Positions 18,447-46,544 of a stretch of DNA of 64,000 nucleotides are shown piece by piece. The notes under the pieces are model-generated. The model did not search any database, was not told the DNA's origin, and saw nothing but the letters and a program-made list of their open reading frames with translations. The stretch lies in assembly GCA_014654705.1 (NCBI GenBank), contig JACVZY010000004.1, positions 1 to 64,000 on the forward strand. Direction: 5' to 3'. The translations under genes were made by a program, and so were the position numbers. The stretch is from Ignavibacteria bacterium. Lineage in GTDB: Bacteria > Bacteroidota > Ignavibacteria > Kapaibacteriales > UBA4661. Within the stretch, counting starts at the first letter, position 1, and each line of letters opens with the position of its first letter.

Positions 18447-20603
18447 CTACCGTACCAGCCGCAACAGCACCGTCTGCGCCACTGCTCCCGCCTGCAAACG
18501 AGCAACATATACGCCACTGGCAAAACTACTCATGTCCGCAGAAATGCTATGCCGTCCTGCTTGCTGCCACTCGTCCACAAGCGTCATCAGCTCTTGCCCA
18601 AGCGGAGAATAGAGAGTGAGACGCACGTGCTGCGGCGCGGGAAGGTCGTATTCGAGGGTGGTTTGGGCGGTGAAGGGGTTGGGGTATTGGGTGAGGATAG
18701 GAGATTGTGCGGGTTGCTCTTGGACGGCGGTGGTGCCGGAGAGAGAGGTGCGGTAAATACCGTTTGCTGTGGATACAAAAAGTGTTGGTCCGACCATTGT
18801 GAGATTTCCCACGCTTTTGTTATCTAAGGGTAATCCTGCATTTTCGGATGTCCACGTTAGTCCATTGTCTGATGAACGAAATACTCCATTATATCCACCA
18901 GCAAAAATTGTCTTATCACTGACGAGAAAAGAATAAATACTTCCCAAACTTGTATTCATTGGTACCCAATTCAGACCATTATCAGTAGAACGATAAACAC
19001 CACACCCCGATGGTCCGGCGAAAAGAATTGTGCCAATCGCAGATACCGAGTAAACTGATGTGGTAGTAAATGTCCCATAATCTGGTCCATGAGATACAAT
19101 AACACTTTTAGGCATACCTCTATTTGCTTCTGTCCATGTCATCCCATTATCTGTAGAACGATAAGCTCCTTTCGTACCTACAGCAATTAGCACCGAGCCA
19201 TTGGTGGTGATTGCCTGAACTTCGCCTAAATTTTGATTTATCGCCTTCCATGTTATGCCGTTGTCTGTCGAGCGTAAAAGTCCCGCACTTGTACCGGCAA
19301 ATATTGCACCATTTTGAATGAAAAAGGTATAGCACCACAGATTGGCAAATCCTGTATTCACCGATGTCCATGTTGCACCATTATCAATCGAAGTAAAGAT
19401 TCCGTTGTTGCTATATCCATTCCATGTTCCTATGAATATCTTTGTTCCAACTTGCGCAATCGCACGGACATTTAGATTGGTTAGCCCGGCACTTACAGAG
19501 CCAAGTTCTGACCAACTCATTCCATTGTCTTTTGAGCTATAGACACCACCACCAAGCAGTCCAGCAAAAATTGTTGTACCGTTTACTGCGAGACTTTGGA
19601 TAAATGCACCTCTCAATCCCGTATTTGTTTGTGTCCAACTTCTACCATTGTCTGAAGATCGGTAGATACCACCACCCCACATTCCGGCAAAAACAGTCGC
19701 TTCACCACTCCCAATAGACCAAACCAACCGACTCTTCAAACCTGATTGCACCCAAGTTCTGCCACTATCTGTGGAACGATATATACCATCACTTCCATTT
19801 TGAGCATCTGAGGTTACAAACAATGTTGTTTTGTGAATTCCCAAAGACTGGATAAGAATGCCATAATCAACGACTCCTAAAATATTCCATGTTTCACCAT
19901 TATCAGTTGAGCGATAGACACGATAAGATGTTGCTGCAAAAAGAATAGAACCCAGCTGAGTAAGAGAGTTGATGTTTACATCGGGTAATCCATTCATTGC
20001 TACCCAAGTTGCACCACTATCTAATGAACGGTAAAGACCAGCTCTTGTTCCGGCAAAGAGCGTTGTTCCAATAACTGTAAGTGAGTTTATGTTTTTGTTT
20101 GTAAGCCCCGAATTTACTTCTTGCCACGTAGTACCGTTGTCGAGTGAACGAAAGATTCCAGAATATGCACTGGCAGCAAAAAGCGTTGTCCCAATAACTG
20201 CAAAAGCTTTTACATATGGGATAGGTTGAGATTTATTATTCAGGCTGCTCCAATTTAAACCATTGTCGGTGGAGCGAAAAACACCATTATTCCAAGTGCC
20301 TGCAAAAAGTGTTGTTCCGATGTTACCAATCGCAGAAATGTATAATTCGGTCAAGCCTGTATTTATTGCTGACCACGTAATTCCATTGTCTCGTGAGAGG
20401 TAGATGCCATTGCCAGATGTTCCTGCGAAGAGAGTGTTATTCGTTGAGAGAAAACAGCGCACATCTCCTCCATACGGACTATTCGACTGTTCCCATTGGA
20501 GGAGCGCTTGGCTATGTCCTTGTGTGAATGTAATGCAAAGAAGTGCCAACACCACGCCACAGCGCACGGCGGCACGAGAGAGAAAGAGCAAGGAGGTTTT
20601 CAT
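18447..20603 (-). CDS. Asp-box propeller protein with T9SS sorting domain
   Basis: A 718-residue secreted protein: signal peptide (1-29, ends GHSQA), then an N-terminal half unit (SNSPYGGDVRCF), then 13 repeats of about 40 residues each starting S.DNG.TW (Asp-box) and ending LFAGT..G.YR. The C-terminal T9SS type A domain (YPNPFTAQTTLEYDLP to GVYVARLQAG) signals export across the outer membrane. Asp-boxes are a structural turn in beta-propellers such as sialidases, but no sialidase Arg triad or FRIP motif is visible, so no enzymatic role is assigned. It is the last gene of a closely spaced minus-strand run, 68 bp after a lipoprotein paralogue. Confidence 0.9.
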   Translation of the reverse strand: MKTSLLFLSRAAVRCGVVLALLCITFTQGHSQALLQWEQSNSPYGGDVRCFLSTNNTLFAGTSGNGIYLSRDNGITWSAINTGLTELYISAIGNIGTTLFAGTWNNGVFRSTDNGLNWSSLNNKSQPIPYVKAFAVIGTTLFAASAYSGIFRSLDNGTTWQEVNSGLTNKNINSLTVIGTTLFAGTRAGLYRSLDSGATWVAMNGLPDVNINSLTQLGSILFAATSYRVYRSTDNGETWNILGVVDYGILIQSLGIHKTTLFVTSDAQNGSDGIYRSTDSGRTWVQSGLKSRLVWSIGSGEATVFAGMWGGGIYRSSDNGRSWTQTNTGLRGAFIQSLAVNGTTIFAGLLGGGVYSSKDNGMSWSELGSVSAGLTNLNVRAIAQVGTKIFIGTWNGYSNNGIFTSIDNGATWTSVNTGFANLWCYTFFIQNGAIFAGTSAGLLRSTDNGITWKAINQNLGEVQAITTNGSVLIAVGTKGAYRSTDNGMTWTEANRGMPKSVIVSHGPDYGTFTTTSVYSVSAIGTILFAGPSGCGVYRSTDNGLNWVPMNTSLGSIYSFLVSDKTIFAGGYNGVFRSSDNGLTWTSENAGLPLDNKSVGNLTMVGPTLFVSTANGIYRTSLSGTTAVQEQPAQSPILTQYPNPFTAQTTLEYDLPAPQHVRLTLYSPLGQELMTLVDEWQQAGRHSISADMSSFASGVYVARLQAGAVAQTVLLRLVR

Positions 20604-20671
20604 AGAAGTTATGTGCATGAGTGAAAAAATTATGATTGATATTTCAGAAATATCCAAAAAACAGGTACTTC

Positions 20672-22522
20672 TTATTTAAGGCGGAGGCGATACACTCCGT
20701 TGTTGAATGTTCCGGCAAAAAGGTTATCCTCCTTGACAAAAAGTGCGACGACATTGGGTACGACTTTTCCCGTATTCAGACGAGTCCATGAAAAGCCGTT
20801 GTCTGTAGATTGGAAAACTCCTCCCGACGTTGTACCCGCAAAAAATGTTGAATCGTTGGAGGCGAAAGCATTTACCCATTGCCCTTCTAAACCCTTTGTT
20901 GGCAACCACGCAATGCCATCATTTGTTGAACGGAACACAGCATTATCGGTAGCGACAAGACTAATGCCTCTACTCATTATAAGTTTTCTGGCATTAATCA
21001 AACTACTTGATGTTGGCAAAATGCCAGTATTTGCAGTTACCCATGTCATCCCATTATCTATTGAGCGTAGAATTCCTTCACCCGTTGCAGCAAGAGCTTT
21101 CGTACCACTTATGGAAATGTCACTTACATAGGGTGACGTGGGATAGACAATGTTCCAAGTATTTCCATTATCAATGGAGCGTGCTATACTCGTATTATCG
21201 CCGATGAGTATAACAGAATTGTTTGCCGCAACTGCCTGAGGGGCTTGACCAGAGTTTAACCCCGTCCATGAAAAACCGTTATCCGATGAGCGATACACAC
21301 CAATTCCTGCCTGAAAAACACCAGCAAACAAGGCACTACTATTCGCGGCTAATGCCGTTATATCGAAATTATCCATAGTACCATTTGTTTGCTCCCATGA
21401 CGCACCATTGTCTTGTGAACGGAAGACACCACCACCCTTTGAGCCTACAAAAAGTGAACCGCCAAACTCAGCAAATCCACTGATATTCGCAGCATTCATA
21501 CCGACATTGGAACGAATCCATGTTACACCGTTATCATTTGAACGCAATACACCCTGTCCTGATGTTCCTGCAAAAAATGTAGATCCCTGTGCTACCAACA
21601 CATTCAAGGCGCTACCAACTATACCTTGTGTGATAGTTTTTGTCCATGTTATACCACCATCAGTAGATCGATAAATCCCACGATACGTTCCTACGACTAT
21701 TGTAGAGCCACTAACGAGGAGTGAGTAAATATCAAGATTTCCTATCTTTGTCCATGAAACTCCATTGTCAGTAGAACGGAATACTCCATTGCCAGCTCCT
21801 GCAAACAGAGTCGTTCCATTTGCAACAAGTTTTAAATTGCTATTCTGAGGTAGAATGTTTGGGAGTTGTAACCATGTTCTGCCGTTATCTGTTGAACGTG
21901 CTATCATTCCTTCGTGACTAGCTGCAAATATTGTTGTACCAATAACGGCAAAAGAGCTTATCCACGAATTGGATGGTAATACCTGTGTTGATGTCCATGC
22001 GGTACCGTTATTTCCTGAGCGAGCAATCAAGCCGAAGCCGCCACCAATAAGAATAGTCGAATCCAATATGAGAAATACCCTTGGAAATATTTGTATGCCT
22101 CCCATTGCGATTTTTTGCCATGTTGCACCGTTGTCGGTCGAGCGAAATACTTCTCCCGTTCCCAAGCCTGTTCCGGCATAGAAGGTAGTACCACGTGCTG
22201 CAATAGCATCCACAGGAAACTCAGATAAAACAGTTTCTGACCATGTTGTACCATTATCAATAGAACGAAAAAGACTACCATGATAATTTACTCCCGCAAC
22301 AAGCGTTGATCCGGAAATTGCTAAACACTGTATCAAACCCCCATCTATGCCTTTGAGACGCTGCCATTCACCGTTACCGGGGGGATTTAGTTGTTGTTGT
22401 GGGGTGGTATCACCCTCAATAGATACTTTGCAGCTGTACAGTACCAGTGGAAGAAAAGTAATAAGCAGCGACAGACCGCCGTAGGTAATATAGCGGCGGA
22501 GATTGTGAATATAGATTCGCAT
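20672..22522 (-). CDS. Asp-box propeller lipoprotein
   Basis: A 616-residue lipoprotein. The signal ends at LYSC (Cys at about residue 31), followed by KVSIEGDTTPQQQ. The body starts GEWQRLKGIDGGLIQCLA and contains 13 Asp-box units (SIDNGTTW, STDNGATW and so on), ending exactly with the last unit FNNGVYRLRLK, with no sorting domain. It aligns along its whole length with the lipoprotein at 30190-32034 (both have KWxxALxxxNDSxFFAGT-type unit 12 and NNGVYRL ends). The start at 22522 was chosen because it begins the signal peptide. Probably anchored to the outer membrane. Function unknown. Confidence 0.88.
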   Translation of the reverse strand: MRIYIHNLRRYITYGGLSLLITFLPLVLYSCKVSIEGDTTPQQQLNPPGNGEWQRLKGIDGGLIQCLAISGSTLVAGVNYHGSLFRSIDNGTTWSETVLSEFPVDAIAARGTTFYAGTGLGTGEVFRSTDNGATWQKIAMGGIQIFPRVFLILDSTILIGGGFGLIARSGNNGTAWTSTQVLPSNSWISSFAVIGTTIFAASHEGMIARSTDNGRTWLQLPNILPQNSNLKLVANGTTLFAGAGNGVFRSTDNGVSWTKIGNLDIYSLLVSGSTIVVGTYRGIYRSTDGGITWTKTITQGIVGSALNVLVAQGSTFFAGTSGQGVLRSNDNGVTWIRSNVGMNAANISGFAEFGGSLFVGSKGGGVFRSQDNGASWEQTNGTMDNFDITALAANSSALFAGVFQAGIGVYRSSDNGFSWTGLNSGQAPQAVAANNSVILIGDNTSIARSIDNGNTWNIVYPTSPYVSDISISGTKALAATGEGILRSIDNGMTWVTANTGILPTSSSLINARKLIMSRGISLVATDNAVFRSTNDGIAWLPTKGLEGQWVNAFASNDSTFFAGTTSGGVFQSTDNGFSWTRLNTGKVVPNVVALFVKEDNLFAGTFNNGVYRLRLK

Positions 22523-22586
22523 AGTGCCTCCAATGGGAATTGTGGTATTGAATATATTTTTGGGGAAGTCCATTTAGGGGTAGATG

Positions 22587-23366
22587 TTATTTTCCAGTAG
22601 CAAAGGGCGCATAGCGCAAGGACACACCAGCGCGGAGGGTGGTGAGCGCCCAAATGGAAGGTTCTGGTATAATTGATCCAAGGAAGTATGTGTAGAATAA
22701 CTCTAATGCACAAAACCATTGTTTACTGTTGTCAATCGGAATTTCATAGCAAGCACCTGCTGAAAGACCCAGATTTGGGTTGTTGAAAGTATTGAACGAT
22801 CCAGTGAATTCATAACGCATCTTCTGCCCGTTGGAAAAAACCGAATAACGGTTTGTGTCCAATATGCGTACACCTCCTTCAATGGGCGTGTTCATGATTG
22901 TTGCCAACTGCACACCTGCGTAGAGTACAAATCTGTCCAGTAGTCGAAAGGTCAGATACGCTTCCGTTCCCAGTTGTGCCAATGGCGAGGTATCAAAATA
23001 TTGTTCCATAAGCGGGCTGCTTTCATATGGTGCGGTCAGTAGCCCGCCAATCTTCGCATATGAAAATCGGAAGGACATACCGAATTCATTCAGAAGCGGT
23101 AATTCTATCAAAGCTCCTGAAGACCAACCAAAAGCCATTGCACCAAAGTTTTTTTCAGTTCGTACTCCCCTTGCCGGTGAATAGAGACCATAGAATGCCA
23201 TACTCACAATTTGTCGTGAATCAATATATGGTGCCTTATGAAAATTCACCCCCGCCGACCCAAAGACTCCATACCGCACAAGCCGCGCTGCGCTATCTTG
23301 CTGCGCACGAGCAGACACGCCACAAAGCAGCAACAATGCTACAAAAAGAAATATCCGAATCTTCAT
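22587..23366 (-). CDS. Outer-membrane beta-barrel protein
   Basis: A 259-residue protein with a signal peptide (1-22, ends SARAQ). The body alternates hydrophobic and aromatic residues as in porin-like barrels, with GSAGVNFHKAPY near the start and LSLRYAPFATGK at the end. It resembles the protein at 42206-43132 (GxxGVNFHxA, then ELPL), so the two are probably paralogues. It lies between the two OM/lipoprotein groups of the propeller cluster, so it may be a membrane partner of the propeller proteins. That is inference. Confidence 0.78.
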   Translation of the reverse strand: MKIRIFLFVALLLLCGVSARAQQDSAARLVRYGVFGSAGVNFHKAPYIDSRQIVSMAFYGLYSPARGVRTEKNFGAMAFGWSSGALIELPLLNEFGMSFRFSYAKIGGLLTAPYESSPLMEQYFDTSPLAQLGTEAYLTFRLLDRFVLYAGVQLATIMNTPIEGGVRILDTNRYSVFSNGQKMRYEFTGSFNTFNNPNLGLSAGACYEIPIDNSKQWFCALELFYTYFLGSIIPEPSIWALTTLRAGVSLRYAPFATGK

Positions 23367-23400
23367 AAAAATCTCCCAAAATGATGATGAGAATGCAATT

Positions 23401-23955
23401 CTAAAAACTCCATCCAAAGCTCAAACCAATAAATGGGATGATAAAATCGCTGTAAGGAGCAATAACACTTTTTGGTGGAAAAGCCATTGCCGTAGCCCGA
23501 AAAAGAAAGCCTCCTTGGGCGGGTTGATAACGATACCCTAACGACGGAAGCTGAGGGAATATCTGCATATCAACACCGTATTGATTTGTATTGACAATGA
23601 AGGGTAAGCTATAACTTATCTCTAACTTATCATTACCACTTCCAATAAGGGCAAAAAGTCCTATTGGCATAATCATACCCAAGCGATTGTACGACCTATC
23701 TAAAACGAACAGATTAAAGGAGCCTGCCATTGGCAGGCAGCCTATCCGAAAACCAAACATCTCGGAAAAAATATATTCATAATTGACAGAGCCTAGCACT
23801 CCCGCACCTAGAAGCTCGATATAGGCGTTATTGATAGTTCGAGGTGCTGTTGCTTCAATGTGTACATTGGCATTGGTGGATTCTTGAGCCGTTGCATATT
23901 GTGCCGTGAGCCACGACATTGCACAGATGATGCCGCAAAGAACGAGTCGTTTCAT
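23401..23955 (-). CDS. Small outer-membrane protein, unknown
   Basis: A 184-residue protein with a signal peptide (1-23, cleavage near ATAQ-ES). The rest shows beta-strand alternation (INNAYIELLGAGVLGSVNYEYIF, IPFIGLSFGWSF at the C-terminus, ending in Phe as many barrels do). It probably forms an eight-strand barrel. It is 34 bp upstream of the next barrel gene, so the two are likely co-expressed. Not recognised further. Confidence 0.72.
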   Translation of the reverse strand: MKRLVLCGIICAMSWLTAQYATAQESTNANVHIEATAPRTINNAYIELLGAGVLGSVNYEYIFSEMFGFRIGCLPMAGSFNLFVLDRSYNRLGMIMPIGLFALIGSGNDKLEISYSLPFIVNTNQYGVDMQIFPQLPSLGYRYQPAQGGFLFRATAMAFPPKSVIAPYSDFIIPFIGLSFGWSF

Positions 23956-23991: not shown

Positions 23992-25044
23992 TTAAGGTAA
24001 TGGAACAGGTGAGACCGCTAGGACAATCGCAGGAGGTTCAAGAAATTGGCGCTGATTTGTACCATCGAGATTGATAATAGAAGGAGTAAGACCTCCTCCA
24101 TTGGTAATAATTTGTTCACTATCTGGCAGCCAGATTGTCAAAAAAAGAGACTCTGAATTACTAATACGTGAATACGTACCACTAATCGTGACAAGATAAT
24201 TTGAGGCACTGCCATCGCTTGCTATCAGGTATTGCCCATTTGGTGACCACGGTGAAGAAAGCGAGGTTACATTTAATCCTACAGCAAATGGTATTCTATC
24301 GGTACCGTCCTCCTTGACACTATATATCTCCCTTCTACGCGTAAGATATATCAAACGCTTACTAGCGGGAAGCCACCGAGGCTCTATATCATCAAAGGCA
24401 GAGGTGGTATCCGTAAGTGTGGTTATATTTGAGCCATCCGCATTGATTGTCATGATCGAAGACAAAGAAGACAGCCTAACTTTTTGAAACGCAATCTTTT
24501 CACCACTGGGAGACCAATAGGCATTATAAAAAGGAAAACTTTGAGAGTAAATTTGCTTTACATTGGAGCCATCGGCATTGGCAACAAAGAGATTCATAGT
24601 ACTACCATTAGCATCCCCACCTTGAACCCTAAAGACCAAGCGCCTGCCATCCGGAGACCAACGCGGAAAAAGAGGTTGTTTGCCAATGGGATTGGTAATT
24701 TTCTGACGGTTTGTTCCATCGGAATTTATCACATAAATTACATTTTCGCTTTGAGCAACATACGCAATCTTCGTTCCGTCAGGCGAGAATGATGCTGATA
24801 CCTCTGTTATGTCTTCCTCCTGCTTCAAATCAGCCAATTTCCAACGGTTTGATCCATCAAGATTCGCAATCCATAACATCCGCAACTTGCCAACTGCACC
24901 AGCAAAAAGAACTTTGTACTGTGGATTCTTTGGGTCGGGCGCTCCTGTATTGATGGTACAGCCCTTCAAGAATAAGTGTACCAGAATAATCATGGTAAAT
25001 TTGAGCAGGAGAACTCTGCTTTTCGGCATAAAGACTTGTTTCAT
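23992..25044 (-). CDS. TolB-like (PD40/WD40-like) propeller lipoprotein
   Basis: A 350-residue lipoprotein: signal LVHLFLKGC with Cys at about 29. It has about six repeats of the PD40 type (FSPDGTKIAYVAQ, WSPDGRRLVFRVQ, WSPSGEKIAFQ, WSPNGQYLIAS) alternating with N.DGSN/NADGSN turns. The arrangement is that of a TolB-type six-bladed propeller. This family is different from the Asp-box propellers around it. It is probably anchored in the outer membrane or periplasm; no peptidase domain follows. An internal ATG at 25029 is an alternative start. Confidence 0.87.
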   Translation of the reverse strand: MKQVFMPKSRVLLLKFTMIILVHLFLKGCTINTGAPDPKNPQYKVLFAGAVGKLRMLWIANLDGSNRWKLADLKQEEDITEVSASFSPDGTKIAYVAQSENVIYVINSDGTNRQKITNPIGKQPLFPRWSPDGRRLVFRVQGGDANGSTMNLFVANADGSNVKQIYSQSFPFYNAYWSPSGEKIAFQKVRLSSLSSIMTINADGSNITTLTDTTSAFDDIEPRWLPASKRLIYLTRRREIYSVKEDGTDRIPFAVGLNVTSLSSPWSPNGQYLIASDGSASNYLVTISGTYSRISNSESLFLTIWLPDSEQIITNGGGLTPSIINLDGTNQRQFLEPPAIVLAVSPVPLP

Positions 25045-25089: not shown

Positions 25090-26514
25090 TTACAACCGCA
25101 GCGAAACCCCATACGTCACGCCCACTTTCGGCGACCAATAATTTACGCCTTGATGTCCATAGAGAAGCGCACTCGCTTCCACGCCAAGCAAAAACTGCGT
25201 TACGCCGTCCGGCGAATATGTGCAACCAACCTGCGTGCGTCCCAGAAAGCCATACCCTGCCACGCCCAGTGTGGCGCTGGCGTAGGGCGAACAGAGGTCT
25301 TCGGGCGTGAAATTGTACCGATACGTCAGTCCAGCCCACCATTGCGTCGGATATTGCGTCACGGTGTAGGTGTCTTGATTTTCCGTACTTTGGTAGCGTT
25401 GGAAAAATGCTTCCTGCCCCACTTCCACACCGACCAAATGATTCGGCGAAAGCGCATAGTGCAGGCTGAGAGCGGCATTATTGAAGAAAGGTGTGGCGCT
25501 TGGTTCCATCGAAGGCGCAGGCAGAGAAAGCGTCGTGAAGCCGCGCACACCCAATCGGAAGCGGTGCAGCACATCGGTGAAGGTTTCCTCGCGATCCGGC
25601 GTATTCGTCAATGCGGGTGTGAATGCGTTCTGAGCAATGCTTGGTGCTGAAGAGCGCTTTGATGCTTGCTCCACCGCGTGACGCGCAACCATTTCCGCCG
25701 CCGATTCCTTTGGTACATTGACCGTCTGCACGTGTGCCGATTCATTGCGAGACGCCGCATTGTTTCCATTCTCATTCTCCATCTCATTTTTCGCAATACT
25801 TGGCTCATGCACATAACGAACCGTTTCTTTCACAATCTCCCGCACAATGACGCGCTCTCGCACGGTGTCGGCGTACATTCCTCCTAGACTGGGATTAGTA
25901 GGATGTAGGAGATTACTGGGATTGTTCGGGTTGTTTGGGTTGTTCGGTGCGCCAAAGCTGTTTTCCAGTGCGGGCGAATGATTTGCTGACGAAGCGTTTG
26001 CGCTTTGTGCTGCGCCGTTGTTGGCTATATTGCTGTTACTTGTTCCACCTGTGCGCCAATTCATCAGCAGCACCGTTGCCAGCGAAGCCACACACGCCGA
26101 AGCCAGTACTGCGCCATAGCTGCGCCATGCACCTGCAAGGGCAACTTTTGCGGCACTGCCCATCACCGCCAAGCCCGACAGCACCTTCGCTGCGCCTGCC
26201 GAAGCGCTTGCAGACGCGCCAACAGCCGTGCCAACGACGGCACTTGCAAGATTTGCACTCGCAATACCTGCACTGGCAAGGCTCGGAATATCTGCCGGAA
26301 CACTAAAGCCCAAGCGCCCGAAAATGGCACTCGTGTCGGCGGGTGAGGGCGTAAAGGCTGCGGTATCGTTCTGGACGGCAGCGCGAATACGGATGAGGTC
26401 TTGGAGTTCGGTGCGGAGTTCGGGGTCGTGCGCCAGTGCGATAAAGACGGCTTCCTCGTGCTGGCTTGCCAGTGTGCCGTCTATCCAGTCGTGGAGAAGT
26501 TCTGAGTAATTCAT
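25090..26514 (-). CDS. Anti-sigma-like protein with C-terminal barrel-like domain
   Basis: A 474-residue protein. The N-terminus (1-50, LLHDWIDGTLASQHEEAVFI then HDPELRTELQDLIRIR) resembles cytoplasmic anti-sigma/FecR-type N-domains without the zinc motif. Residues 50-130 are Ala/Ser-rich, a transmembrane segment lies at about 133-153, and a low-complexity stretch (NNPNNPNNPSN, about 190-200) and a charged linker follow. Residues 318-474 look like an outer-membrane barrel (LSLHYALSPNHLVGVEVGQEA, WWAGLTYRYNF, ending KVGVTYGVSLRL). It directly follows the ECF sigma gene (58 bp), the usual sigma/anti-sigma order. A protein with both an inner-membrane helix and a barrel-like end is odd; see findings. 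Confidence 0.82.
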   Translation of the reverse strand: MNYSELLHDWIDGTLASQHEEAVFIALAHDPELRTELQDLIRIRAAVQNDTAAFTPSPADTSAIFGRLGFSVPADIPSLASAGIASANLASAVVGTAVGASASASAGAAKVLSGLAVMGSAAKVALAGAWRSYGAVLASACVASLATVLLMNWRTGGTSNSNIANNGAAQSANASSANHSPALENSFGAPNNPNNPNNPSNLLHPTNPSLGGMYADTVRERVIVREIVKETVRYVHEPSIAKNEMENENGNNAASRNESAHVQTVNVPKESAAEMVARHAVEQASKRSSAPSIAQNAFTPALTNTPDREETFTDVLHRFRLGVRGFTTLSLPAPSMEPSATPFFNNAALSLHYALSPNHLVGVEVGQEAFFQRYQSTENQDTYTVTQYPTQWWAGLTYRYNFTPEDLCSPYASATLGVAGYGFLGRTQVGCTYSPDGVTQFLLGVEASALLYGHQGVNYWSPKVGVTYGVSLRL

Positions 26515-26572: not shown

Positions 26573-27139
26573 TTACTTGTTCAAATCGTGCAAATATGGT
26601 GATAAAATCTGCCGTATTTTCTGCTTCGCGCGGTGAACGCGGGTGCGGATGGTGGCTTCGTTCGAGTTCAGAAACTCCGCTATTTCCTGATGCGATAGCC
26701 CGTCGTATTCGCGCAAGACAAATGCCTCGCGGTGCTCGAAATCAAGCAGTTCCAGTGCGGTGGTGATAAGCGAAAGGAGTTCGTTTTCTTCGATGCGCCG
26801 CACGGCGTGGTGGTCTGGCGAATCGTAATCTTCAAAGCGAAAGGTAACGCGGGTATTGCGCTTGTGCTGAAGGCAGAGATTACGCGCTATCACGAGCAGA
26901 TACGCCGGAACGTTGGTCATGGTGCGCTCCGCTGCCGTCTGGGCGCTTTCGTAAAAGCGCGCAAAGGTCTCTTGAAAGACATCGGAGGATTCTTCCCGTG
27001 AGCCAAGCACGCGCTTGCAATACGCATTGATGCGCGGCGCATGGCGGCGATACAGTTCCGCAAATGCTCGCTCGGCTTCGGGGTGTGAGGCGCGAAGCTG
27101 GGCGTAGAGCGCGATGTCGGTTTGGTTGTTTGGGGGCAT
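26573..27139 (-). CDS. ECF-type RNA polymerase sigma factor
   Basis: A 188-residue sigma-70 family protein from the ATG at 27139 (frame open to 27181). Region 2 is visible around AFAELYRRHAPRINAYCKR and DVFQETFARFYESA (-10 recognition). Region 4 has REAFVLREYDGLSHQEIAEF and ATIRTRVHRAKQKIRQIL (helix-turn-helix, -35 recognition). Regions 1.1 and 3 are absent, as in ECF sigmas. It is followed by the anti-sigma-like gene and sits in the middle of the propeller gene run, so it may control these genes. Confidence 0.94.
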   Translation of the reverse strand: MPPNNQTDIALYAQLRASHPEAERAFAELYRRHAPRINAYCKRVLGSREESSDVFQETFARFYESAQTAAERTMTNVPAYLLVIARNLCLQHKRNTRVTFRFEDYDSPDHHAVRRIEENELLSLITTALELLDFEHREAFVLREYDGLSHQEIAEFLNSNEATIRTRVHRAKQKIRQILSPYLHDLNK

Positions 27140-27182
27140 GATGATGTTTGAAATCGTCTTACTATCTTGGGATTTCGGCAAA

Positions 27183-27959
27183 TTACCTGCTCACAATAAT
27201 TCTCTGCATTTTGATACCGTCTATGCTCCGAACACGGCAGAAATAAATACCATTGGTGAGATTACTCACATTCAGTGGTTGTCTGTGGTTACCTGCTGGC
27301 TGCACGTCCAAATTGATAACCGACTGAATGACTTCGCCGCGCATATTCACGAGTTCAATCGTAACATAACTTGTTTGGCGAAGGCTATATTGTAGCGTCG
27401 TTTGCTCACTGCAAGGGTTGGGAAATATTGGTAGAGATGGCTCATCCTCGATTCCTCTTACGGCGGTGTTTACTAATACCTTGTTTAAACTGTCTATCCA
27501 CTTCTCTCGTTCAGCACTCCATCGCCCTGAGGTTTGGAAACAGGGACCATAATTGATTGCAAAAGTTGGCGCAACGCCAAGAAATAGTATTTGTCTATTT
27601 GTGTCGGGTACATACTGACCACCACTCAGATTGCCAAATGTAAAACGCCCGCACGAACTTATTGCAATGCAGCTACCATAGAGTTCCGAAAAAGTAAGAA
27701 TCGATTTTTCTCGGATGCTTCCACGGATGATTCTTTCCACTTCAAATCGTATTTCGACGTTTCGGCAATCAAACGGGGAATTTGGCAGAACTGTATAGCC
27801 AATAACCTTTCCTATCACAACATTTGCTGTCCTGCTCAAAGCTGCGCTCATATATACATTTCTCACTGTGGCATCTGTTATGAACTCACAACTGCACCCA
27901 ATCAACGGTTCAAAATTTGCCATGAAATAAATCAGTATTAGCATGATGAGTGTTTTCAT
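27183..27959 (-). CDS. Secreted NTR/TIMP-like protein with T9SS domain
   Basis: 258 residues. The hydrophobic leader ends LIG followed by CSC (Cys 22 and 24). A domain of about 150 residues has ANVVIGKVIGYTV, VEIRFEVERIIRG and a Cys-rich GSCIAISSCGRF...GGQYV. This order matches netrin/TIMP-like (NTR) domains, which begin with a CxC pair. The C-terminal 80 residues are a T9SS type A domain (IFPNPCSEQTTLQYSL to GIYFCRVRS). LIGC also fits a lipobox, so the mature N-terminus could be lipidated. It lies 43 bp upstream of the sigma factor start. Confidence 0.72.
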   Translation of the reverse strand: MKTLIMLILIYFMANFEPLIGCSCEFITDATVRNVYMSAALSRTANVVIGKVIGYTVLPNSPFDCRNVEIRFEVERIIRGSIREKSILTFSELYGSCIAISSCGRFTFGNLSGGQYVPDTNRQILFLGVAPTFAINYGPCFQTSGRWSAEREKWIDSLNKVLVNTAVRGIEDEPSLPIFPNPCSEQTTLQYSLRQTSYVTIELVNMRGEVIQSVINLDVQPAGNHRQPLNVSNLTNGIYFCRVRSIDGIKMQRIIVSR

Positions 27960-28022
27960 CGTGGTTCTCCAAAGAAGTACATAAAAATGATGTTGAGTCA
28001 GAGGGAATATTGGGAAACACAA

Positions 28023-30131
28023 TTATCGCCGTACCTGCAAGAGCCTGTGCGCACGTTCGTTTCCGGCTTGCACCACCACGCTGTATGTGCCATTGGGTAA
28101 CGTGTGAAGGTCTTGCTCTATATCGTGTACGCCTGAGGGAAGCTCACCAAGCGAGCGCTGTTGCATGAGACGACCAAGAGCATCGAAAATACTAATCTCT
28201 ATCATACCCGCTCTGGGTATATCCAGCGTCAGGCGTGTTCGGTCAAAAGCGGGATGCGGAGCGAAGGAAATTCCAATAGTGGCGGGCTGCGGCGCGGAGG
28301 TGCGGACGGAAACCGAAGAAGTGCTGCCGATGTTTGCTTTGAATACTCCGCTGCCACCCGTTCCGGCAAAGAGTGTGGAACCAATCACGGTAGGAGACCA
28401 GACTTTAGAATTCGTTAAGCCGTTGCTGACTGATTCCCATGTTATTCCGTTATCTGTCGAGCGAAATACTCCCTCGGCACTTCCAGCAAAGAGAGTGCTC
28501 CCGCTCATGGTGATAGAATTGAAATAAGCGTTTCTCAAGCCGTTACGGATTATTTGCCACGTTGTACCGTTGTCTGTCGAGCGAAAAATTCCGGCATCTA
28601 TCCTCGCAAAGAGTGCAGTGTTGTTGACGAGTAGTAGATTGAAAAAAGAACTTCTCAAGCTGCTACCGAGTGTTTGCCATGTTGTGCCGTTGTCTATTGA
28701 ACGTAGCACTTTACCGCCATTTGTTCCCGCAAAGACTATCGTCCCATTGACCGCAAAGGAAACAACATCGGTATTCATTAAGCCATTATTGACCAGTTGC
28801 CACGTTGTGCCGTTATCTGTCGAGCGATATACCCCACCTAGTGTCGCGGCAAAGAGCGTGGTTCCACTAACAACAAGAGACAGGACAGATGAGTACCTCA
28901 AGCCGTTGACTGCTTGCCATGTTGTGCCGTTGTCGGTCGAACGGAAAACACCGCTAGATGTAACTGCAAAGAGCGTGGTACCGCTCACAGCTAAAGAATA
29001 TATAATAGTCCTCGTCAAGCCGTTATTAACAGCTTGCCATGTTGTACCATTGTCTGTTGTGCGAAATACGCCGTTATCGTAAGTCGCCGCAAAAAGCGTT
29101 GTGCCGTTCACGGCGAAAGATTGAATATCTGTATTGATTAAGCCGTTATTGACTGCTTGCCACGTTGTGTCGTTGCCTGTCAAGCGAAGTACTCCATGAC
29201 CATTGGTCCCAGCAAAGAGAGTCGTGTCGCTGACGATGAGAGACTGGAAAAGGACATCATCAAAGCCGCTACTGATTGCTTGCCATGTAGCGCCACTATC
29301 CGACGAGCGAAAAACTCCACCCCCAGCACCATATGACCCTGCAAAGAGGGTTGTGCCACTCACGACGAGAGATCTGATTAATTTTTTTAAGCCTACATTA
29401 ACCCATGTAGCGCCGCTGTCCGACGAGCGAAAAACACCGCTTAAAGTTCCCGCAAAAAGAGTTGTTCCGCTGATGGCTAGAGAAGTGACAGAGTTGAAAT
29501 AGAAATTGTCCAAGCCTATGGAAACCCTTTGCCAAGTTATGCCATTGTCCGTCGAGCGATAAATTTCCGCGGGCTCCGTTCCCGCAAAGAGCGTGGTGCC
29601 GCTTACAGCGAAACACAAGACTGCGTAACTTGTCAAACCACTATTCACCCACGTAGTACCATTATCTACGGATCGGAATATGCCGCCTCTTATCCCAGCA
29701 AAAAGCGTAGAACCACTAACGGCGAGAGAAAAAACAGTGGAACCCGTTAAGCCGTTATTTACCGCTTGCCACGTTAAGCCATTATCCAAAGAGCGAAATA
29801 CACTGCCGTTGCCGATACCATCATTTACGCCAGCAAAGAGAGTCGTGCCGCTGACAGCCAGATCATCGATAAAAAAATTCGTTAAGCCACAGCTGACCCA
29901 TGTTGCCCCGTTATCCATTGAGCGGAATACACCACCAGGGGATGTCCCTGCAAAAAGCATAGTTCCATTTTTTGCAAAACACTTTACGTCGCCCCCATAC
30001 GGACCATTCGTCTGCTGCCATTGTACATCTTGAGCCTGTGCGGGGTACAGAGTGCAAAGAGACACAAACAGAATGAGATACAGTGCTGTTATTTGCGCTT
30101 TGGTATTGAGTATGTCAAGAGAAGTTTTCAT
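28023..30131 (-). CDS. Asp-box propeller protein with T9SS-like end
   Basis: A 702-residue protein. The signal peptide (ends PAQA, about 33) is followed by QWQQTNGPYGGDVKCFAKNG and 13 units of the pattern VSGTTLFAGT.GGVFRSTDNGTTWQAVNNGL. Unit 7 is degenerate (LTGNDTTW in place of STDNGTTW). The last 80 residues (ISFAPHPAFDRTRLTLDIP to GTYSVVVQAG) are a divergent T9SS sorting domain with HP in place of NP. The nucleotide sequences of the units are strongly similar to each other, so unequal recombination or conversion is possible. Upstream is the lipoprotein paralogue at 58 bp. Confidence 0.9.
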   Translation of the reverse strand: MKTSLDILNTKAQITALYLILFVSLCTLYPAQAQDVQWQQTNGPYGGDVKCFAKNGTMLFAGTSPGGVFRSMDNGATWVSCGLTNFFIDDLAVSGTTLFAGVNDGIGNGSVFRSLDNGLTWQAVNNGLTGSTVFSLAVSGSTLFAGIRGGIFRSVDNGTTWVNSGLTSYAVLCFAVSGTTLFAGTEPAEIYRSTDNGITWQRVSIGLDNFYFNSVTSLAISGTTLFAGTLSGVFRSSDSGATWVNVGLKKLIRSLVVSGTTLFAGSYGAGGGVFRSSDSGATWQAISSGFDDVLFQSLIVSDTTLFAGTNGHGVLRLTGNDTTWQAVNNGLINTDIQSFAVNGTTLFAATYDNGVFRTTDNGTTWQAVNNGLTRTIIYSLAVSGTTLFAVTSSGVFRSTDNGTTWQAVNGLRYSSVLSLVVSGTTLFAATLGGVYRSTDNGTTWQLVNNGLMNTDVVSFAVNGTIVFAGTNGGKVLRSIDNGTTWQTLGSSLRSSFFNLLLVNNTALFARIDAGIFRSTDNGTTWQIIRNGLRNAYFNSITMSGSTLFAGSAEGVFRSTDNGITWESVSNGLTNSKVWSPTVIGSTLFAGTGGSGVFKANIGSTSSVSVRTSAPQPATIGISFAPHPAFDRTRLTLDIPRAGMIEISIFDALGRLMQQRSLGELPSGVHDIEQDLHTLPNGTYSVVVQAGNERAHRLLQVRR

Positions 30132-30189
30132 CGTTGTTGTATGATAAGCGAAATCCGAGAGGAGTTTCAGAGTGATTCAAAATGTGGTT

Positions 30190-32034
30190 TTAGCGAAGCG
30201 GAAGGCGGTACACGCCGTTGTTTTGTGTTCCGGCAAAAACACTACTACCCATGAAGAAGAGTGATGTGATATTTTTAGGAGCCGTTTTGCCTTGATTCAT
30301 AGATGTCCACGTCGCGCCGTTGTCTTTAGAGCGAAATAACCCATCTGCAAATGTACCGGCGAAAAATACGGAATCATTTACCGCCGTCAGAGCAGTACAC
30401 CATTTTCCTACCATCTCGCCGCCGCTTATCGTCCATGTTTTGCCGCCATCGCGGGAGTAAAACGTATTGTCCGGGCTGGTTGTGGAGGCGATAATGGTAG
30501 ATTTATTAACGGCAAACCTCGTGTAGAAAAAAGTTGAGCCAGTCGGGATAATACCAGTTTGAGAAACTGCCCATGTCGCGCCGTTATCAACAGAGCGCAA
30601 AACCCCCTTAGAACTTGTTACCAAAATGCTTGAGCCTTGTATCGCAATGTTGCCAAGACCCGAAGCACCATTGGGAAAGGTCGTTTGCCGCCACGTTCTT
30701 CCGCTATCTTGCGAAAGAGAAATATCCACTGCTCCGGCGATAGCAATACTTGAGCCATTAACGCAGATGGCTCTCACATCAAAGTTTGTTGGTACGCCGC
30801 TCCATGAAGAACCATTGTCGGAAGAACGGTACATACCGGTGCCGGATTGACCTACACCAGCGAAAATGGTATTTCCAATAGAAGCAAGGCTCTGAATAGT
30901 AAAATTATTGAGGTTTCCATTAGTGCGAGTCCATGAAGCACCATTGTCTTGAGAGCGCATAAGTCCGCCGCCGCGTAAGCCTGCAAATAGCGTATTTCCT
31001 ACTGCCGTGATGCCCGTAACTGTTGGAGCGCTTAGTCCGCTATTTGATGTCGCCCACGAAGTGCCGCCATCGGTTGAGCGCAAAATACCTAAGCCCGAAG
31101 TCCCCGCAAAGAAAGTGGAGCCGACAAGACTTAGCATATTGATAGCGTTACCACCCAAGCCCTGCACCGATGCTATTCCCCATGTCGCTCCGGCATCTGT
31201 CGAGCGGAAAATGCCGTTAAATGTTCCGGCAATCATCGTTGAACCGCTGGCAACCATACTATACACATCAAGAGAGCGCAAGAGCGTCCATGATTGCCCG
31301 CTATCAAGCGAACGAGAAATGCCACTTCGGGTTCCGGCAAAGAGTGTCGTACCGACTACCACTAACTTGGGGGTATTACCAGGCGGAGAATTGGGAAGCA
31401 TAGACCATGATTGTCCGTTGTCATCGGAGCGCCAGAGCGTATTGTTTGCTACACTCGCAAAAATTGTGTTTCCTATCGTTACCAGTGAAAGAATCGTTCT
31501 ATTCGCTCCGGGAGTGATTGGAAGAGTGATAGTTTGCCATGTTTCTCCAAGATTGGTTGAGCGCATAATTCCTCCAGAACTGCCACCGGCAATAATAGTA
31601 GAGCCGATGACCAAAAATTCTTTCGGATACACACCGAAATTTGCGTTTTGTAATACTTGCCATGTCGTGCCGTTATCTTGTGAGCGAAGTAACTCCTTGC
31701 CCGCTAAATTTGTCGCGGCAAAGAATGTACTTCCGGATGACACCACAGCGCCGATATAGAGCTGCTCCGCATCCAGAGCTTTCCAGTTCAACCCATTGTC
31801 CTGTGACCGAAAAAGACCGCCATTGGTGGCAATAATTAACGTCGTGCCGGAGCTTGCGAGAGAACCAACAGTACCACCATTTACGCCCGTTAATTGCTGC
31901 CAATCTCCATTGCTCACTAATTCCAGCACACGCGGAATATCGCCTTGCAAGGGGTCTTTGCAGCTTTGCACATTCATCAAAAAGAGACAAGCGACCAGCA
32001 GGAGTGCTGGCTTCAGGAATGAGGAGGTTTTCAT
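30190..32034 (-). CDS. Asp-box propeller lipoprotein (second copy)
   Basis: A 614-residue lipoprotein with signal KPALLLVACLFLMNVQSC (Cys at about 25), followed by KDPLQGDIPRVLEL. The body starts GDWQQLTGVNGGTVGSLA and holds 13 Asp-box units (SQDNGLNW, SQDNGTTW, STNLGETW and so on), ending NNGVYRLPLR. It is a full-length paralogue of the gene at 20672-22522, and its first 40 codons are almost identical to those of the gene at 33793-35658. It follows the membrane-protein gene by 27 bp and precedes the T9SS propeller. Confidence 0.88.
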   Translation of the reverse strand: MKTSSFLKPALLLVACLFLMNVQSCKDPLQGDIPRVLELVSNGDWQQLTGVNGGTVGSLASSGTTLIIATNGGLFRSQDNGLNWKALDAEQLYIGAVVSSGSTFFAATNLAGKELLRSQDNGTTWQVLQNANFGVYPKEFLVIGSTIIAGGSSGGIMRSTNLGETWQTITLPITPGANRTILSLVTIGNTIFASVANNTLWRSDDNGQSWSMLPNSPPGNTPKLVVVGTTLFAGTRSGISRSLDSGQSWTLLRSLDVYSMVASGSTMIAGTFNGIFRSTDAGATWGIASVQGLGGNAINMLSLVGSTFFAGTSGLGILRSTDGGTSWATSNSGLSAPTVTGITAVGNTLFAGLRGGGLMRSQDNGASWTRTNGNLNNFTIQSLASIGNTIFAGVGQSGTGMYRSSDNGSSWSGVPTNFDVRAICVNGSSIAIAGAVDISLSQDSGRTWRQTTFPNGASGLGNIAIQGSSILVTSSKGVLRSVDNGATWAVSQTGIIPTGSTFFYTRFAVNKSTIIASTTSPDNTFYSRDGGKTWTISGGEMVGKWCTALTAVNDSVFFAGTFADGLFRSKDNGATWTSMNQGKTAPKNITSLFFMGSSVFAGTQNNGVYRLPLR

Positions 32035-45065: not shown

Positions 45066-45167
45066 GAAAACTTGCGAAGCACCTCCTACTGGCAAAGAAG
45101 CCATCTGGAACACGACAAAAATAACTCAAACCGCATATAATCTCATCATTTTCATTTTTTGACCACT

Positions 45168-46544
45168 ATGGAATTTCTTACCATCGCGCTCAGTTTCGTT
45201 CTTGTGCTGGGCATTCTCGTTACTGTCCACGAGCTTGGACACTTCCTCGCAGCCCGCATGACGGGTATGTATGCGGAAACCTTTGCCGTCGGCATGGGCA
45301 ACCGCGTTGTGGGCTTCAATAAAGTTCACGGCGTAAAATTCGGTTCGCTCTCTGAAGAGCAGGAGCAGCAAGTCGTGGATGCAAAAGTCACGGATTACCG
45401 TATTGCCATGCTTCCCATCGGCGGCTATGTCAAGATTTCTGGGATGATCGACGAAAGCATGGACACGGAATTTCTTGCTTCCGAACCGCAGCCGTGGGAA
45501 TTCCGCTCCAAAAATGCGGCGCAAAAAATCTTCGTCATGGCGGCGGGCGTGATTATGAATATTCTGCTCGCAATTGCAATTTTCACCGGAATTGCCATGC
45601 TCGACGGTAAGTCCGTACTGGAAACGACAACAATTGCGCATGTAGAAAAAAATACCATTGCTGAGGCAATCGGCTTAAAAGCGGGCGACAAAGTGCTGAC
45701 CATCAACGGCGACAAACCAAAGTCGTGGACAGATATGACGCTGCTGCTCACGAAAAATGTTGGCGAAGACATCAATGTTATGGTCGAGCGCGGCGGTTCG
45801 CAGTTTCCGCTTCGCATACCTGCCAAAACATTGACCGATGCGCTTGCCGCACAGCAGCCAATTGGCTGGCTGCCTGCGGGAACAGCCGTGATGATAACCG
45901 GTGTGGAAAGCCTGAAGCCAGCAGGAAAGCTGGGCTTGATGTCGGGCGATACGGTTCTGACGCTGAACGGCTTGCCAATGTTCTCCGCTTCACAATTTGC
46001 CGAGCAAATCCGCGCAAATAAGGGCAAGGAAATTGCTCTTGAATGGAAGCGCACCGGCTCGCTCATGAGCGGTCGCCTCACGCCCGACGCTGACGGACGC
46101 ATCGGTGTTGCGCTGGCGGGCATTTTCACAGGTGAACTCAAAAAACAACAGTATGGCTTTTTTGAGTCTTTTGCTGTCGGCACACAAGAAATGGTCTCGA
46201 CAATTACAATGTATGTCAGCTCCATCGGGCAGATTTTCAAAGGCAAAGTCTCCGTGAAGCAGTCCGTGGGCGGTCCGATTCAAATTGCCAAAATGAGTAA
46301 GCAAGCCGCTGACCTCGGTGTTCTGGCGCTGCTACGCTGGATGGCGCTGCTTTCAATTATCCTTGCGGTGATGAACATTCTTCCTTTTCCGGCATTAGAC
46401 GGTGGACATATTCTTTTTATCCTCATCGAAGTTATTATTCGCCGCGAAATTCCCGTGAAAGTCAAACTCGGTGTTCAGCAAGCAGGCATCATCATTCTGC
46501 TCTGTTTCATGGTATTCGTCTTTTACAACGACCTCACACGATAA
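45168..46544 (+). CDS. rseP: RIP metalloprotease RseP (site-2 protease)
   Basis: A 458-residue intramembrane zinc protease. HELGH is at 21-25 in the first helix, and the third zinc ligand lies in NILPFPALDGGHILF. Two PDZ domains are visible (about IGLKAGDKVLTINGDKP and LGLMSGDTVLTLNGLPM), as in the E. coli-type enzyme. It cleaves membrane-bound anti-sigma factors. It may act on the anti-sigma-like protein at 25-26.5 kb; this is inference. The frame begins with TTG at 45159, but the ATG at 45168 is preferred. Confidence 0.95.
   Translation: MEFLTIALSFVLVLGILVTVHELGHFLAARMTGMYAETFAVGMGNRVVGFNKVHGVKFGSLSEEQEQQVVDAKVTDYRIAMLPIGGYVKISGMIDESMDTEFLASEPQPWEFRSKNAAQKIFVMAAGVIMNILLAIAIFTGIAMLDGKSVLETTTIAHVEKNTIAEAIGLKAGDKVLTINGDKPKSWTDMTLLLTKNVGEDINVMVERGGSQFPLRIPAKTLTDALAAQQPIGWLPAGTAVMITGVESLKPAGKLGLMSGDTVLTLNGLPMFSASQFAEQIRANKGKEIALEWKRTGSLMSGRLTPDADGRIGVALAGIFTGELKKQQYGFFESFAVGTQEMVSTITMYVSSIGQIFKGKVSVKQSVGGPIQIAKMSKQAADLGVLALLRWMALLSIILAVMNILPFPALDGGHILFILIEVIIRREIPVKVKLGVQQAGIIILLCFMVFVFYNDLTR

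Follow-up and report, generated by a model that had tools for sequence, protein, structure and literature searches.

The gene pair and its surroundings

We analyzed a 64,000-nucleotide stretch of DNA (hereafter, the window) from an Ignavibacteria bacterium with a genome of 5.7 Mb; the named genomes closest to it are Candidatus Kapaibacterium and 'Ignavibacteria' MAGs. The initial annotation had placed an ORF at positions 25090-26514 after an ECF sigma factor gene, and this was found to be exact: the ORF is on the minus strand, codes for 474 amino acids and lies 58 bp behind the sigma ORF. The pair, the parts of the 474-residue protein and one nearby gene are as follows:

26573..27139, minus strand: ECF sigma factor gene, 188 amino acids from an ATG (Sigma70_r2 E 1.8e-13, Sigma70_r4_2 E 6.4e-15)
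25090..26514, minus strand: whole gene, ATG start, for the predicted dual membrane-spanning anti-sigma protein, 474 amino acids
26314..26514, minus strand: residues 1-67, predicted cytoplasmic class I anti-sigma domain, zinc-less, RseA/RsiW/MucA-like (AF2, PDB matches, standalone homologs)
26050..26157, minus strand: residues 120-155, predicted single inner-membrane helix with a hydrophobic core at 133-151 (hydropathy, AF2)
25561..26049, minus strand: residues 156-318, predicted disordered periplasmic tether (pLDDT, family tether lengths)
25093..25560, minus strand: residues 319-474, predicted 8-stranded OmpA-type outer-membrane beta-barrel with a C-terminal beta-signal (AF2, fold and sequence tests)
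22587..23417, minus strand: secreted 276-residue protein, possible target or partner gene (inferred from the relative at locus L072)

The sigma factor encoded at 26573-27139, whose two Pfam matches are both well above cut-off, is presumed to be the partner of the 474-residue anti-sigma protein. Its listed ORF begins at a TTG at 27181, upstream of the ATG; the ATG start is supported by the sigma ORFs of relatives, which are 183-190 amino acids long (e.g., 188 in loci L010 and L011). Searches of Pfam and NCBIfam with the window protein alone gave no match above cut-off, so that the protein was resolved only by its relatives and by fold comparison. A PDB profile search with the full-length family alignment returned chance hits only. 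A full-length AlphaFold2 (AF2) model, built on an alignment of 15 sequences, had a pTM of 0.39, and it carries no model confidence for the tether or for the placement of the domains relative to each other.

Several other genes surround the pair. A PD40 beta-propeller protein whose start resembles that of a lipoprotein (23992-25044) and a small secreted protein (23401-23955) are encoded between the anti-sigma gene and the gene at 22587-23417. A relative of the latter directly follows the anti-sigma gene in L072, where the anti-sigma protein is 88% identical to that of the window; reading of the two sequences revealed common VRYGVFGSA... and RAGVSLRYAPFATGK ends. Just upstream of sigma, the product of 27183-28022 has a type IX secretion system (T9SS) sorting tail (Por_Secre_tail E 1.1e-12), and this gene could share a transcript with sigma. 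The pair is flanked (18447-22573 and 28023-32034) by four large ORFs composed of repeated 'GTTLFAGT...VFRSTDNG.TW' units, which by eye look like sortilin/BNR-like propellers, and similar units occur beside the sigma pair in L072 and L073.

The M50/PDZ protease RseP had been suggested to process the fusion protein. It is indeed encoded in the window (45159-46544, Peptidase_M50 E 1.7e-55), beside dxr and ~19 kb from the anti-sigma gene. Because rseP beside dxr is a common housekeeping arrangement and the distance is large, its presence is no evidence of a link to the anti-sigma protein, and RseP was set aside as a housekeeping neighbor.

Predicted cytoplasmic domain, tether and barrel

The start of the 474-residue protein had been described as anti-sigma-like over residues 1-50. 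Fold and homologs support this identity, and the domain extends to about residue 67. In AF2 its helices were at residues 3-12, 17-29, 31-54 and 58-67, and residues 1-76 folded alone with relatives formed four helices with a mean pLDDT of 80. A fold search of 350,542 PDB chains gave only 13 matches at E <= 10, each of them weak (E 0.8-9), and all 13 were anti-sigma factors complexed with sigma (RsiW, MucA, RslA, ChrR and the SigK partner). The top PDB sequence-profile match was the cytoplasmic domain of RseA, again weak (E 0.048). Family members also had weak matches to zf-HC2, to RseA_N and to the NCBIfam 'anti-sigma factor' model (best 1.5e-6, in a relative). The zinc motif HxxxCxxC was absent from the family alignment; zinc-less members of class I, such as RseA, exist.

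Elsewhere in the phylum, across further orders and classes, the family profile mostly matched the N-terminal part only. We fetched 20 loci of such standalone homologs, which are proteins of 140-275 amino acids with one membrane helix, and found an ECF sigma gene directly ahead of 18 of them. Several contain the Cys pair of the zinc-binding subgroup, which the window protein lacks. This gene neighborhood is the strongest test of the putative anti-sigma identity. We conclude that the N-terminus fits a class I anti-sigma domain of the RseA/RsiW type, as predicted from models and homologs, each single fold match being weak. It is highly probable that the 474-residue protein inhibits the neighboring sigma factor.

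The single inner-membrane helix, annotated at 133-153, was recovered at 133-151 by hydropathy and at 120-155 in the AF2 model; its exact limits are uncertain because the segment 75-150 is Ala/Gly-rich. Flanking charges do not clearly fix the orientation of the helix in this family. The region described as a linker is disordered (156-310, pLDDT mostly 27-55, below 50 at 151-271 and 283-310). Among 35 family members, the tether between helix and barrel has 99-224 residues (median 155) and is at least 99 residues long in every one. With 0.34 nm per residue, even the shortest tether of 99 residues would reach ~34 nm at full extension, enough to span a periplasm of ordinary width.

For the C-terminus, a barrel-like domain had been proposed from residue 300 onward. 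Structure prediction gave a confident 8-stranded barrel at 319-473, not a beta-sandwich, and thus moved its start to about residue 319. The strands are at 319-330, 347-354, 359-369, 390-401, 408-419, 422-433, 439-454 and 457-473, with block pLDDT values mostly of 88-95, and the model has an extra short hairpin at 372-387. Foldseek searches of PDB with the barrel detected NspA, OmpA and others (best E 2e-5, NspA). In VIA-align comparisons, the highest score was for OprF-N (Z 16.0, rmsd 2.6 over 119), followed by OmpA (Z 14.2) and by NspA and PagL (both Z 13.7). Avidin, a soluble 8-stranded barrel, also matched at a lower Z of ~10-11, and sequence tests of the barrel were added for this reason.

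In tests with 5000 shuffles each, the alternation of hydrophobicity along the strands was equaled four times for the window protein and once for the family mean. A C-terminal outer-membrane beta-signal was present in 31 of 35 family members versus 3 of 74 window ORFs. Six charged residues (R324, E364, E368, R426, E446 and K463), distributed over five strands, are near-invariant, and all are on the non-hydrophobic face. Charged residues make up 3.0% of the hydrophobic strand face and 18.6% of the opposite face; the inward and outward faces were set by hydrophobicity rather than by coordinates, so this contrast is partly built in, whereas the near-invariance of the six charges is not. The charge network is presumed to sit on the inner face of the barrel. 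With its eight strands, hydrophobic face and beta-signal, the modeled C-terminus qualifies as a predicted outer-membrane barrel of the OmpA type.

Conservation of the fusion and its sigma partners

A search for the same fusion beside ECF sigma genes in relatives, as the initial annotation had proposed, found window-protein matches in 60 of 61 genomes (its own and relatives in the order, which consists of Candidatus Kapaibacterium relatives). Full-length relatives in the order were 22-88% identical. We fetched 30 loci, of which 28 were complete and the rest cut by contig ends; an ECF sigma ORF was immediately upstream in all 28. In a set of named-record loci, sigma adjoined in 13 of 15 and the other two were cut by contig ends (this set includes three records that are also among the 30 loci: L072, L073 and L076, there listed as L010, L011 and L013). 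The fusion is therefore not a chance event, being conserved in relatives with sigma adjoining at every complete locus checked. Most family matches are in frames of ~350-500 amino acids, and the shorter ones that were checked were cut by contig ends. One relative with a 7.9 Mb genome (G024) represents a large expansion of window-type sensors, with 34 matches, some of which are pieces of the same gene.

The domain identities, their order, their conservation and the pairing with sigma are all computational observations. They agree with the proposal that one polypeptide links the sigma factor with the outer membrane, which is supported by the fold, by N-terminal homology and by conservation of the fusion, and we regard the dual membrane-spanning architecture predicted for the 474-residue protein with high confidence.

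Four sigma-linked proteins come from outside the order but from the same taxonomic class (L112, L113, L114 and L115, 442-599 amino acids). Their N-terminus is of the same kind and their C-termini end like barrels. The layout from sigma to barrel may extend beyond the order.

The genome of the window has 33 Sigma70_r2 loci. Seven of these have barrel-ended partners: L050, L053, L054 (the window pair), L056 (counted from its sequence and ending), L057, L064 and L065. Among 29 other sigmas found by phmmer, the five nearest to that of the window are exactly the five whose partners have the same N-terminus, and the tree support for this window-type grouping in the genome is 0.995. The barrel of the L064 protein (G000:C6; its sigma is at 86817-86990) is related to those of the window family, with E 4.9e-18 against the family profile; the N-terminus of this protein differs from the window type, and its sigma is distant and belongs to another clade. 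L064 appears to be a case of domain exchange, with parts exchanged among such proteins. Since the partners of the five nearest sigmas share the N-terminal type and the L064 protein does not, it is the N-terminal domain and not the barrel with which the sigma type varies. Judged from these sequences, the cytoplasmic domain is the part that sigma follows, which is what a cognate pair would show.

The same genomes contain sigmas of another clade. The proteins encoded after them combine a short N-terminus with one membrane helix and, at the C-terminus, a T9SS sorting domain:

Own genome: T9SS-tail-type proteins of L066 (G000:C71:267300-269351) and L070 (G000:C5)
Relatives: T9SS-tail-type proteins of L133-L138, L142, L143 and L149, with a T9SS domain in most

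TIGR04183 scored over its cut-off in L066, L070, L133, L135, L138, L139, L142, L143 and L149, and a TonB_C domain was found in five of the scanned proteins (L066, L133, L134, L135 and L138). A sigma ORF was present upstream in the fetched stretch for all proteins of this type except L139. By their sequences, these proteins may be anti-sigma factors that are linked to type IX secretion. Literature text searches found no paper describing a sigma-linked membrane protein with a T9SS sorting tail; the nearest lead is PorA-SigP signaling (PMC7712824). These proteins may be a newer find than the barrel fusion.

We compared the three sigma types (window, Das2 and T9SS-tail-linked) in an IQ-TREE tree of 67 sigmas. 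Each type was on one side of a branch (SH-aLRT 98, 100 and 98, respectively), and a single clade of window-type and Das2-type sigmas was rejected (AU test, p = 0.0175).

Relation to known systems and possible signaling

The idea of a single chain from sigma to the outer membrane is not new. Bacteroides thetaiotaomicron has the four-part layout in its Dma family, which was described in 2024-2026 (PMC13088901 and its reference 16) and first reported in gut Bacteroides in 2024 (as cited in PMC13088901). Dma proteins have the same order of parts, i.e., an anti-sigma domain, one helix, a long disordered tether and a C-terminal beta-barrel, with an adjoining ECF sigma. We recovered Dma2 orthologs via their DUF4943 neighbor and, through them, further Bacteroidales Dma relatives; the relatives in the Dma2 order are also sigma-linked. 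However, Dma2 relatives have only a short stretch of ~40-60 amino acids before the helix (which starts at ~42-62), whereas the window protein has an RseA/RsiW-type domain of ~67 residues. An hhalign comparison of this domain with the Dma2 pre-helix stretch detected no similarity (P 0.8), a result to be read with the reservation that short domains can hide homology. Comparison of the barrel profiles of the window family and Bacteroidales Dma gave a weak P of 0.008. Dma2-type (Das2) and window-type sigmas form separate clades, and the host order is also different. From sequence comparison, the window protein appears to work like Dma but is not filed in the ECF21/Dma family. Because no similarity of its N-terminal domain to that of Dma2 was detected and the sigma clades are separate, it is probably a new variant that was independently assembled, a likelier history than common descent with Dma.

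Other known systems share individual features. The fold of the cytoplasmic domain and the place behind an ECF sigma gene are shared with RseA, MucA and RsiW, in which a periplasmic domain forms the end of the chain and the outer-membrane signal has to come from elsewhere. The window protein differs in having an outer-membrane barrel in the same chain and in lacking the zinc-binding HxxxCxxC motif. In FecR/FecA/FecI, an outer-membrane event likewise reaches an inner-membrane anti-sigma factor and then an ECF sigma, but FecA and FecR are two proteins touching in the periplasm, while the window protein is one chain with an 8-stranded barrel (TonB-dependent receptors have 22 strands). The fold of this barrel is shared with OmpA, OprF and NspA. 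In contrast to them, the window protein lacks an N-terminal export signal and is joined to an anti-sigma domain, and it lacks the C-terminal peptidoglycan domain of OmpA.

The best overall explanation, which we consider very likely, is that the protein is an anti-sigma factor anchored in the membrane and that it senses through the outer-membrane barrel in which it ends. At rest, sigma would be held at the inner membrane by the N-terminal domain, and the barrel, inserted by the Bam machinery, would be anchored in the outer membrane. A change at the barrel (binding of a ligand inside it or at its loops, failed insertion or lost outer-membrane integrity) would expose or pull the tether, after which a periplasmic site-1 protease and then RseP in the membrane may cut the anti-sigma protein. 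The freed sigma would then switch on its target genes, among them probably envelope genes nearby. Release through RseP by regulated proteolysis is slightly more likely than not.

What the barrel reports may be its own assembly. If Bam or outer-membrane assembly failed, an unfolded barrel would be left in the periplasm, a DegS-like protease would see its beta-signal and sigma would be released, so that the protein would resemble an RseA carrying its own test substrate. The RseA/MucA-like anti-sigma domain and the canonical beta-signal of most members are consistent with this, and C-terminal peptides of the beta-signal type activate DegS in Escherichia coli. On the other hand, the many paralogs (the seven sigma-linked ones in this genome; up to 34 matches per genome, some split) suggest different signals, and the conserved charge network suggests a function beyond folding. 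Paralog number favors different signals and the beta-signal favors assembly sensing; we regard sensing of assembly as a possible but less probable reading, one that refines the best explanation and is not its opposite.

It is unlikely that the chain is simply cut during maturation into an ordinary outer-membrane barrel and an ordinary inner-membrane anti-sigma protein, the fusion serving co-production only. The long low-complexity tether would tolerate such cleavage; however, the fusion is kept, the tether never falls below 99 residues, and co-production alone predicts that the genes should sometimes be separate, whereas most matches are in frames of ~350-500 amino acids.

The alternative offered in the initial annotation, a periplasmic beta domain, would make the C-terminus a soluble beta-barrel or beta-sandwich with a ligand-binding role close to the inner membrane. 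Avidin-type barrels do match, but they are outranked by OprF, OmpA and NspA (Z 13.7-16), and the hydrophobic face (3% charge versus 19% on the opposite face), the six near-invariant charges, the beta-signal and weak Pfam OMP_b-brl matches in two relatives all disfavor a soluble domain, which we consider very improbable. Least probable of all is a periplasmic location of the entire N-terminus, with the helix acting as an export signal: the positive-inside bias of the family is indeed not significant (K/R of 1.17 in the N-flank versus 0.94 in the C-flank, p = 0.13), unlike in Bacteroidales Dma, where it holds in 14 of 14, but ~120-130 residues precede the helix, beginning with the anti-sigma domain of sigma-linked single-helix proteins, and such a domain is meaningful only in the cytoplasm.

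In this order, the predicted RseA/RsiW-like domain is joined to an OmpA-like barrel and paired with a sigma group separate from Das of Bacteroides, and the T9SS-tailed proteins would be a third type; we lean toward the view that tethering of the inhibitor to the outer membrane is a general means of envelope sensing that was built repeatedly in Bacteroidota. What had been a sensor class of a few Bacteroides proteins is found across an entire order of environmental bacteria, in almost all genomes sampled, and neither a particular anti-sigma domain nor a particular sigma group is required for the layout. The family offers a clean comparison for how an outer-membrane signal would reach sigma without an intermediate partner protein.
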